From positions 1 to 25,580 of IMG/VR virus record IMGVR_UViG_3300030109_001891: a stretch of 25,580 bases of DNA; one strand, written 5' to 3'. The notes beneath the pieces were generated by a model that ran no database searches, was not told the DNA's origin, and was given only the letters and a program-made list of their open reading frames with translations. Made by a program: the position numbers and the translations under genes. This document shows positions 14,201 to 17,182 of this stretch, piece after piece. The stretch comes from a virus. How positions within the stretch are numbered: the stretch's first letter is position 1; the number at the start of each line of letters is the position of its first letter.

Positions 14201-14228
14201 AATATAATGTCATAATATCCTATGTCAA
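14201..14228 (-). promoter_or_regulatory. Sigma70-like promoter of the leftward replication operon
   Basis: On the minus strand: TTGACA (plus 14223-14228), 16-bp spacer, TATATT (14201-14206). The predicted start is near 14194, about 30 nt upstream of ATG 14164. This gap of 66 bp is the only intergenic space before a run of genes reaching at least 6610. Confidence 0.65.
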
Positions 14229-14230
14229 GT

Positions 14231-14581
14231 TTATTCTTCAATCTTTCCTTGTTCATATAAATTTATTTCTATTGGGTAATAAGTTTTCTCTTGCCTGTCC
14301 CATTTTAGTAAATTAAATTTTCCCCCCGTTTTATCTGCCACAATTGAACACGCTACACCTATGATTGCAGGATCACCTGTAAGTAGCAAATAATCATCCT
14401 CTGTATATTTATCTAATAGTTTTCTTAATTTAAAAATTAAAGGTCCTGGAGATAAAATAATTTGTGAATGTTCTGGTAATAAAGTTTTTAATGTGCCGAA
14501 CTTTTGAGCTCCCATAATATTAAATTTAGGGGTTCCTATCTTAGTTCCTGGTAATTCTTGTATTATATAAACTGTGTTCAT
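14231..14581 (-). CDS. Small hypothetical phage protein (116 aa)
   Basis: A 116-aa soluble alpha/beta protein. Features are MNTVYIIQELPGTKIGTPKF, LPEHSQIILSPGPL, DDYLLLTGDPAIIGVACSIV and a FNLLKWDRQEKTYYPIEINL segment. The LLLTGDPAIIG stretch has a nucleotide-binding look but no complete motif. From memory, a near-identical LTGDPAIIG...LLKWDRQEK protein occurs in many pelagiphages, always hypothetical. It is the leftward gene of a divergent pair with the SNF2 ATPase, behind its own promoter at 14601-14627 and an AGGAAAG ribosome binding site. Confidence 0.65.
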   Translation of the reverse strand: MNTVYIIQELPGTKIGTPKFNIMGAQKFGTLKTLLPEHSQIILSPGPLIFKLRKLLDKYTEDDYLLLTGDPAIIGVACSIVADKTGGKFNLLKWDRQEKTYYPIEINLYEQGKIEE

Positions 14582-14591
14582 AACTTTCCTA

Positions 14592-14621
14592 TTGACATCT
14601 ATTATAGGGTTATGTTATCAC
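14592..14621 (+). promoter_or_regulatory. Putative rightward promoter of the SNF2 gene
   Basis: TTGACA (14592-14597), 18-bp spacer and TATCAC (14616-14621, 4 of 6 matches). The start would fall near 14628, leaving a leader of about 17 nt to ATG 14645. The -10 is weak, so activation may be needed. Confidence 0.45.
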
Positions 14622-14627
14622 TGTCAA
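14601..14627 (-). promoter_or_regulatory. Leftward promoter of the 116-aa gene
   Basis: On the minus strand: TTGACA (plus 14622-14627), 15-bp spacer, TATAAT (14601-14606). Both boxes are exact consensus, with a spacer two bases short of ideal. It overlaps the rightward promoter completely, so the two cannot be occupied together. Confidence 0.55.
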
Positions 14628-14644
14628 TAGAAAGAAGAAATATT

Positions 14645-16075
14645 ATGGACTATAAATTTAAAACGAGGCCTTATGATCATCAATTATCTGCGTTAAAAAA
14701 ATCGTGGAATAAAGAAAACTTTGCGTATTTCATGGAGATGGGTACAGGTAAATCTAAAGTGTTAATAGATAATGTATCTATGCTTTATGACAAAGGTAAA
14801 ATTAACGGACTACTTTTAATTGCACCTAAAGGTGTTTATAAAAACTGGTTCGACTCAGAGATACCTACACATATGGTGGACCATATAGATAAAAAAATGG
14901 TGTTGTGGCAAGCCAATATAAATAAAGGACAACAATTAAAATTAGATACTTTATTTGAAACAGGTGAAGACTTGCATATATTAATTATGAATGTAGATGC
15001 TTTTAGCACAGAAAAAGGTGTAGAGTTTGCAGCTAAGTTTTTAAGATGTCATAGAACTTTGATGGCCATTGATGAGTCTACAACTATAAAAAATCCTGAC
15101 GCTAAAAGATCTAGAAATATTTGTTCATTAGGTAGACATGCAAAGTATAGAAGGATCTTAACTGGATCTCCTATTACAAAGTCTCCATTAGATTTATATA
15201 AACAATGTGAGTTTTTAGATGAAGGTTTATTAGACTTTACTTCTTATCTTGCATTTAGAACTAGATACGCAATCATGAGTACCATGAGGTTGCCTACACA
15301 CAATGCACAGATAGTAGTTGGTTATAAAAATTTAGCTGAACTATCAGAAAAAATAACTACGTTTTCAGATCGTGTATTAAAAGAAGATTGTTTAGATCTT
15401 CCTGATTATACTTATCAAAAAAGAGTTATCCAATTAAGTAAAGAACAACAAAAACTTTATGATCAAATGAAACAAGTAGCACTTGCTCAGATGGACGGTA
15501 AGTTGATGACTACATCTACTGCATTAGTTCAATTGATGAGACTTCAACAAATTACTTGTGGTCACTTTAAGGCAGATGATGATACCTTAAAAATAATTAA
15601 GAATGAAAGAATTCCTGCTTTGATGAACATATTAGAAGAGGTAGAAGGTAAAGCTATTATCTGGGCCCATTGGAGACATGATATAGACTCAATCGTTAAA
15701 GCAATTGAAAAAGTATATCCGGGTTCCGTGATGACTTATTATGGATCAACTTCTACCGAAGACAGAGCAAAAGCTATTAAAGAAATACAGGACCCAGAAT
15801 CTAAAGTTAGATTTTTAGTCGGTACCCCTCAAACGGGTGGTTATGGTATTACACTTACTGAAGCTAACGTTATGATTTATTATTCTAATGGTTATGATTT
15901 AGAGAAAAGAACTCAAAGTGAGGCTAGAATAAATCGTATAGGTCAAAAAAGAAAGATGACTTATATCGATATTATAGCTGAGAAAACTGTAGATGAAAGA
16001 ATTGTAAAAGCTTTACGTAAAAAAATTAACATAGCTAGTGAAGTTATGGGAGAAGAGTTAAAAGAATGGATCTAA
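14645..16075 (+). CDS. SNF2-family DEAD-like ATPase/helicase
   Basis: A 476-aa protein from ATG 14645-14647 (MDYKFKTRPYDHQLSALKKS). Motif I is MEMGTGKSKV (residues 30-39), motif II is AIDESTTIKNP (DEST, 143-146), and motif III is LTGSPITKSPLDLY. The C-terminal RecA domain has KAIIWAHWRHD, FLVGTPQTGGYGITLTEA and QSEARINRIGQKRKM, the SNF2 motif VI. Such ATPases translocate on duplex DNA. The frame is open upstream to 14558, but the promoter pair places transcription starts downstream of that. It is one of only three rightward genes, has its own promoter, and is followed by a 69-aa gene overlapping by 10 nt. DNA remodelling in replication, recombination or defence evasion is inference. Confidence 0.9.
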   Translation: MDYKFKTRPYDHQLSALKKSWNKENFAYFMEMGTGKSKVLIDNVSMLYDKGKINGLLLIAPKGVYKNWFDSEIPTHMVDHIDKKMVLWQANINKGQQLKLDTLFETGEDLHILIMNVDAFSTEKGVEFAAKFLRCHRTLMAIDESTTIKNPDAKRSRNICSLGRHAKYRRILTGSPITKSPLDLYKQCEFLDEGLLDFTSYLAFRTRYAIMSTMRLPTHNAQIVVGYKNLAELSEKITTFSDRVLKEDCLDLPDYTYQKRVIQLSKEQQKLYDQMKQVALAQMDGKLMTTSTALVQLMRLQQITCGHFKADDDTLKIIKNERIPALMNILEEVEGKAIIWAHWRHDIDSIVKAIEKVYPGSVMTYYGSTSTEDRAKAIKEIQDPESKVRFLVGTPQTGGYGITLTEANVMIYYSNGYDLEKRTQSEARINRIGQKRKMTYIDIIAEKTVDERIVKALRKKINIASEVMGEELKEWI

Positions 16076-16275
16076 TAATTTCAAATGATGGTGTGTATAG
16101 TTTAGTAACTGTCACTCAAGCCATGTTGGAACATATAAAAATACTAAGTGATGTAGATTGTTTTGATTTGTGTGAAATTATAAGAACAGAGTTTACAGAA
16201 TATTTAGACTCTCCTAATAATTTACATGTAATGAAAGATGGTAGTGGAAATTTTTATGGATGTATTTGCCGTTAA
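16066..16275 (+). CDS. Small hypothetical protein cotranscribed with SNF2 gene
   Basis: A 69-aa acidic protein (MDLIISNDGVYSLVTVTQAM, then HIKILSDVDCFDLCEIIRTE) with no recognised domain. It overlaps the SNF2 gene by 10 nt in another frame, so the two are translationally linked and may form a complex; that is inference. Its TAA shares three bases with the stop codon of the convergent 59-aa gene. Confidence 0.6.
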   Translation: MDLIISNDGVYSLVTVTQAMLEHIKILSDVDCFDLCEIIRTEFTEYLDSPNNLHVMKDGSGNFYGCICR

Positions 16276-16451
16276 GCTAACATATCCATAAGTAAAGTTA
16301 TAAGCACTGCACCCATACCACCAACAATCCAATACTCTAATCTTTTTATTCTTTCTTGCATTTCTTTTATTTGCTCAAACGTTTGTTTCTGCATAATTCT
16401 GCAAAGCTTTTCATGAGATTCTATTTTCTCTAATGCAGATTTTCTAGCCAT
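16272..16451 (-). CDS. Small membrane protein, holin-like (59 aa)
   Basis: Read from ATG 16449-16451 to TAA 16272-16274. An N-terminal coiled-coil part (MARKSALEKIESHEKLCRIM to RIKRLE) is followed by one C-terminal transmembrane segment YWIVGGMGAVLITLLMDML. This resembles XhlA-type haemolysin/holin-associated proteins and is, from memory, frequent in pelagiphages. It joins the 243-aa gene upstream by TAATG. If a holin, it is about 11.5 kb from the endolysin. Confidence 0.65.
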   Translation of the reverse strand: MARKSALEKIESHEKLCRIMQKQTFEQIKEMQERIKRLEYWIVGGMGAVLITLLMDMLA

Positions 16452-17182
16452 TAATTTGAACCTAAATTTTTTGTTGCGTTATTGATTAAAGCTTGAAGTT
16501 CTGCAATAGTTAATCCTCCTTGACCTGGTGGAAGAGCAGGTGATTCCATTCCAGAAGAATCAAATTCAAATGTTTGAACAGGTCTTACTTCGGATAAAAT
16601 TCCAGATCTATCAAACTTCTCTCTAATATCTATTGTATCATTTACAGGTACGCTCTGCATGTTTTTATAAAAATCTACTAAAGTAGGAGATTCTTGAAAA
16701 GTATTTAAAGTTTGTGGAACCTTATTTTTTAAAAAATTGTACCCAGTATATAGTCTGCCTGCCAATGGATTAATTAACCCTAAAATTCCTCCCATAAGAA
16801 TATTACTATAATCAGGAAGTTGATTTCTAGAACCAATCTGGTCTATGGTAACTGGCTGATACGTTCGATTAAAAAAGCTAGGTTCAAACCTAGCAGCATT
16901 GTTTTTATTTAAATTATCTATAAATTGATTTTGAGATCTTTGAAAGTCAGCACCTGTAATAGGTTTTTGATCTATGTTTGTAGAATCATATGTTGGTGCA
17001 ACAGGTGGACTATATTTTCTGTAATCAGAATCTTGTCCGCCTCCACCGCCGCCAAGGTTTCCCGAGCTTCCACCTGTACCTGGACTTGTTTTTCTACTTG
17101 AGGCTTCAGCACTACCAGGTGCTCCACTACCACCTTGATATGCTCCACCAAATCTAAAATTTATTCTTTTATCTATTGCCAT
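16451..17182 (-). CDS. Glycine-rich structural protein, probable virion component
   Basis: A 243-aa protein. Residues 10-50 are low complexity (runs of Gly, Ser, Pro; FRFGGAYQGGSGAPGSAEA, NLGGGGGG). The middle is polar, and a helical part with NILMGGILGLINPLAGRLYT lies near 130. The end, LPPGQGGLTIAELQALINNA, could be a short docking helix. No enzyme motif. Its place at the end of a row of large virion-type genes suggests a minor structural or ejected protein; no family recognised. Confidence 0.5.
   Translation of the reverse strand: MAIDKRINFRFGGAYQGGSGAPGSAEASSRKTSPGTGGSSGNLGGGGGGQDSDYRKYSPPVAPTYDSTNIDQKPITGADFQRSQNQFIDNLNKNNAARFEPSFFNRTYQPVTIDQIGSRNQLPDYSNILMGGILGLINPLAGRLYTGYNFLKNKVPQTLNTFQESPTLVDFYKNMQSVPVNDTIDIREKFDRSGILSEVRPVQTFEFDSSGMESPALPPGQGGLTIAELQALINNATKNLGSN

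Follow-up and report, generated by a model that had tools for sequence, protein, structure and literature searches.

The DNA analysed here (the window) is a single IMG/VR virus entry of 25,580 bases. The closest named relatives of its SNF2 helicase are those of phage 023Pt_psg01 (62.7%) and of Pelagibacter phage HTVC027P (gp87, 59.3%), and because of these neighbours the contig is placed as a relative of the HTVC023P/HTVC027P-type pelagiphages. The host of this marine phage, judged from the relatives, is probably a SAR11 bacterium. The SNF2-type helicase gene (14645..16075, + strand) starts with ATG and encodes 476 aa. A co-directional 69-aa ORF (16066..16275, +) overlaps its end, and the family search with this ORF returned no family. 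Further to the right, a perfect 7-bp GC-containing hairpin followed by TTTTTT (16877-16894, -) is terminator-like in the leftward sense and sits within a 243-aa ORF (16451-17182). To the left of the SNF2 gene, a 116-aa gene (14231..14581, -; Pfam PF23992 Pam3_gp32, phrog_5888) is the first gene of a leftward replication operon, where it is followed by gp33- and gp34-like proteins, a primase, a helicase and DNA polymerase A. The gap between the leftward 116-aa gene and the rightward SNF2 gene is 63 bases. The structure model of the 116-aa protein is a small α/β domain without an HTH (pLDDT 84). Among its fold matches in the PDB, CARF/SAVED and ring-nuclease proteins predominate, the best being a weak match to the viral SAVED ring nuclease 9r8s (E 0.0047); from so weak a match, the protein might help the phage to counter defence signalling by cyclic nucleotides.

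The 63-base gap contains a perfect 9-bp inverted repeat, whose left arm, CTATTGACA, is at 14589-14597 (+) and whose mirrored right arm, TGTCAATAG, is at 14622-14630 (-). The coordinates and the 33-base distance between the arm centres, as given in a first-pass annotation of the sequence, were confirmed. The search of the rest of the genome for CTATTGACA found no further copy, and the two arms are the sole copies in the 25,580-base record. The core pattern TTGAC-N(21-26)-GTCAA occurs once in the window, against 0.14 expected. A perfect 9-bp inverted repeat was also found in 359 of 20,000 shuffles (1.8%) of the intergenic region, which kept its length and composition; taken alone, the repeat is only mildly unusual. 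With a one-base bulge it extends outward as CTTTC-C-TATTGACA / TGTCAATA-GAAAG. These outer blocks are the ribosome-binding regions of the 116-aa gene (14584..14591, -; TAGGAAAG read leftward) and of the SNF2 gene (14630..14637, +; GAAAGAAG), and GAAAG is found upstream of 9 of the 32 predicted window genes.

Each arm also includes a TTGACA hexamer, so placed that two putative promoters face each other. The rightward -35 (14592..14597, +) lies inside the left arm and is followed by an extended -10, TGtTATCAC (14613..14621, +), with the hexamer TATCAC at 14616-14621 and a spacer of 18. The leftward -35 (14622..14627, -) lies inside the right arm and is followed by TATAAT (14601..14606, -) with a spacer of 15; an alternative leftward -10 is TAATAG (14604-14599), with a spacer of 17. 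The usual spacer between -35 and -10 is 16-18 bases. The leftward TATAAT is below this norm, and the rightward TATCAC is without the final T. Neither the rightward nor the leftward promoter passed a consensus scan of the window with 16-18-base spacers. The rightward transcript is predicted to start near 14627-14629, on the leftward -35, and the leftward transcript near 14592-14594, on the rightward -35, which would put the starts about 33-37 bases apart. An RNA hairpin or terminator was rejected as the role of the repeat, since by this geometry each predicted transcript would contain only one arm and the repeat could not fold.

For comparison, 80 SNF2 and 80 gp32-like loci were fetched. Both genes were found in 157 loci; in 155 of these they are divergent and adjacent, and the loci gave 92 distinct intergenic regions. 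Every one of the 92 has the rightward -35 core TTGAC, and 62 have the exact mirrored GTCAA. The inner arm spacings are 23 (2 regions), 24 (5), 25 (13), 26 (24), 27 (16) and 28 (2). Of 91 distinct homologous regions, 61 contain the pattern TTGAC-N(21-28)-GTCAA, whereas shuffles gave 0.06. It is this sharing of the mirrored pair among relatives, far above shuffles, that makes the repeat convincing. The flanks are also shared: of the 61 two-armed relatives, 57 have CTTTC directly outside TTGAC and 60 have GAAAG directly outside GTCAA.

The positions of TATA tetramers were compared among 33 non-redundant cores. Rightward TATA starts pile up at spacers of 16-18 (25 occurrences; about 2.8 expected) and leftward ones at spacers of 15-17 (24 occurrences; about 2.7 expected), and the middle of the core is avoided. 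In either direction the best -10 match scores above shuffles (z 3.6 and 3.9), values that overstate independence because the 33 cores are mutually related. A stricter -10 score, restricted to spacers of 16-18, hardly set the leftward direction apart from shuffles (median p 0.32, with 0.09 rightward). Among 14 close relatives, the sole invariant inner bases are TA.A, which fits the leftward -10, and TG.TA, which fits the rightward extended -10. The proposal that the SNF2 and 116-aa genes have overlapping, opposed promoters thus gains support from the sequences, as both -35 cores occur in most lineages with TATA at -10 distance both ways. The first-pass annotation had also made conservation of the repeat beyond the -35 hexamers a test of its reading. 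The outcome of this test is mixed: the conserved flanks are ribosome-binding sequence, and the invariant inner bases belong to the -10s. Its idea of a strong leftward and a weak rightward promoter was not supported, given a leftward spacer of 15, an extended -10 for the rightward promoter, and a rightward -35 that is universal whereas the leftward one was lost several times. The annotation had left the 15-base spacer and the TG of the extended -10 out of account.

The same arrangement was found at other gene pairs. A scan of viral contigs for TTGAC-N(22-28)-GTCAAYAGAAAG gave 119 loci, of which 99 adjoin SNF2/gp32 and 20 lie elsewhere. Several of these 20 are chance hits inside genes, and six led to a second locus or to similar intergenic sites. 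The second locus has an 81-86-aa gene pointing leftward on one side and, on the other, a small rightward gene close to a large-terminase-like gene. All 19 distinct regions from marine phages (L376-L402, some 100 bases ahead of the match in each) have TTGAC-N(21-25)-GTCAA there, flanked on the outside by CTTTC and GAAAG, and their rightward -10s are TATATT-like. Contig G004, a carrier of the SNF2/gp32 pair, also has the second-locus element (G004:54965-54998), ahead of the homologous right gene; its left gene there is different. A possible third two-armed element (L407:663-698, G005:32262-32297) is flanked by a leftward terminase small subunit-like gene and a rightward 78-aa ORF. That the repeat arose by chance in an AT-rich spacer could be argued from the 1.8% of shuffles with an equally good repeat, a figure that concerns one region. 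This explanation is extremely improbable in view of 61 of 91 homologous regions and of all 19 regions at an unrelated gene pair.

A one-way leftward promoter of the same phages served as a control. This promoter, P_L2 (14201..14228, -), follows the 116-aa gene, has the form TTGACA-16-TATATT, is the best consensus match in the scan and is conserved in relatives. No mirrored arm was found at P_L2 in any of 63 distinct copies. The spacer block of P_L2, ATAGGATWTTAT, is unusually conserved across many relatives, and similar GGATATTATG blocks precede -10s at other sites; this type of block is possibly a phage-specific promoter motif. In some lineages (L046, L052, L054 and similar loci), the gap between gp32 and gp33 is about 300 bases and appears to contain an extra small ORF with an internal TTGACA promoter.

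The control bears on a rival explanation, in which the rightward promoter alone is real, GTCAA belongs to the sequence after it (discriminator and start site) or to the SNF2 message at its 5' end, and expression of the 116-aa gene comes about in some other way. The universal TTGAC (92 of 92) would agree with it, as would the position of GTCAA, which in most lineages lies 0-2 bases past the rightward -10. The leftward -10 is the weaker one under the strict spacing rule, and one-armed lineages persist, including the cultured HTVC027P. However, P_L2 never has GTCAA after its -10 (0 of 63), so that GTCAA does not serve these phages as a start-site element in general. Moreover, leftward TATA recurs at spacers of 15-17 (24 occurrences in 33 cores), and the mirrored arm recurs at the second, unrelated divergent pair. 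We regard a rightward promoter alone as unlikely.

The history of the mirrored arm was followed on the SNF2 tree. Among 87 rows, its presence or absence requires 7 changes, with about six losses; HTVC027P and HTVC023P are without the arm, and 023Pt_psg01 has it. Because two-armed regions occur in deep branches and in large subclades, the two-armed form seems to be either old or repeatedly regained, the root of the tree being unresolved. The leftward half appears to be dispensable, since the arm was lost about six times and is absent in HTVC027P and HTVC023P, whereas the rightward promoter is the conserved core. Perhaps the leftward -35 can be lost because a second promoter usually follows the first gene of the leftward operon. 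Both arms are kept in 11 of 11 lineages without P_L2 and in 50 of 80 others; this association was rejected as evidence, because the tree gives only one or two independent contrasts.

The first-pass annotation had also suggested that the repeat might be the site of a symmetric regulator. As an operator, it would bind a dimeric regulator of phage or host origin, which would lie across both promoters and select one direction. The arms are perfect over 9 bp, and some subclades have altered arms, CTTTCTTG...CAAGAAAG, that still mirror each other but have fewer matches to the -35. Such control of divergent overlapping promoters is known, for example through RcoLS20 in pLS20 (PMC4207663). Against this, the arm spacing varies in single-base steps (23-28; 21-25 at the second locus), which would rotate the half-sites of a rigid dimer, and the sixth arm base shows no strict co-variation between the arms. 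The window has the repeat a single time and related genomes, as a rule, no more than once, and it recurs only as the same promoter design. No HTH regulator was found among the scanned window proteins, in a contig that is incomplete and has many proteins of unknown function. The exact repeat had 74 hits in 257 Gb of cellular genomes, against an estimate of roughly at least 34 by chance; a spread of the repeat in cellular genomes was rejected, as the hits are scattered and at about chance level. The 116-aa protein was also rejected as its own regulator, its model being α/β and without an HTH. An operator is slightly less probable still than a rightward promoter alone, and the suggestion of a symmetric regulator is not upheld, given the spacing variation, the scanned proteins without an HTH and the α/β prediction for the 116-aa protein.

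The element is probably a compact bidirectional promoter, that is, two facing sigma70-type promoters under one RNA polymerase footprint. The facing pair spans 36 bases between the divergent genes; both directions have a -35 that resembles TTGACA and a -10 that resembles TATA, and each -35 lies where the opposite transcript should start. This reading is preferred to a rigid operator because the arms differ in spacing by single bases (23-28). The transcript starting rightward at about 14627-14629 would encode SNF2, and the one starting leftward at about 14592-14594 would encode the 116-aa protein. Both leaders would be about 11-18 bases long, with the ribosome-binding site as the first feature. 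Because the two promoter footprints coincide, a host polymerase bound in one orientation should exclude the opposite one, so that the genes would compete for one initiation site and a dedicated regulator would not be needed. For this mutual exclusion we draw on the geometry and on published bidirectional promoters, where opposed polymerases are unable to bind together (PMC12825309). The basal activity of such promoters is usually low, and competition matters once one direction is activated (PMC12825309). By analogy, this low activity would fit the sub-consensus promoters found here.

A broader proposal is more tentative and, in our estimate, somewhat short of an even chance. The HTVC023P-type pelagiphages and their kin may hold a dedicated design, with mirrored TTGAC/GTCAA, both -10s inside and the ribosome-binding sites directly outside. 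It might be reused at unrelated divergent pairs (SNF2/gp32-like; the small pre-terminase gene; possibly terminase small subunit/78-aa), where a single host polymerase footprint would share out initiation between two operons, with no regulator involved.

Pelagiphages are among the most abundant marine viruses. To our knowledge, the timing of their gene expression is largely unknown, and the literature search on pelagiphage promoters found no paper describing them. An RNA-seq paper on HTVC027P infection gives expression times, without start sites (PMC12753301). The conserved two-way promoter that heads the replication operon would offer a testable rule, in which initiation is divided between two operons by the host polymerase alone. 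Moreover, the phage family supplies many natural variants, in arm spacing and in the presence or absence of one arm, for testing the published model of polymerase competition. The interest is moderate and comes mainly from the reuse of the design at unrelated gene pairs in abundant marine phages.

Compact divergent promoters inside palindromic DNA are known from Tn10 tetA/tetR and from E. coli bioA/bioB, where they have a known repressor. The phage element differs from these in its variable spacing, and no repressor was found. The element also resembles the bidirectional promoters of Escherichia coli and Salmonella described by Warman and Grainger (PMC12825309, PMC10268837), in which pseudo-symmetric DNA binds polymerase singly in either orientation and gives divergent RNAs. 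Those promoters have one shared symmetric -10, with starts commonly 18, or 10 or 23, bases apart; whereas the phage element has two separate TATA blocks in place of a shared -10, near-consensus mirrored -35s, and predicted starts about 33-37 bases apart that lie on the opposite -35s. Another similar system is Pc/Pr of pLS20 (PMC4207663), whose opposed promoters coincide or overlap, serve divergent genes and have polymerase on only one at a time. However, Pc/Pr relies on promoters of unequal strength, on DNA looping and on a dedicated regulator, RcoLS20, which one of the two genes encodes; the phage element showed none of these. These comparisons place the element, as far as its sequence allows, among the overlapping divergent promoters, as a variant with separate -10s and mirrored -35s that recurs at unrelated gene pairs.
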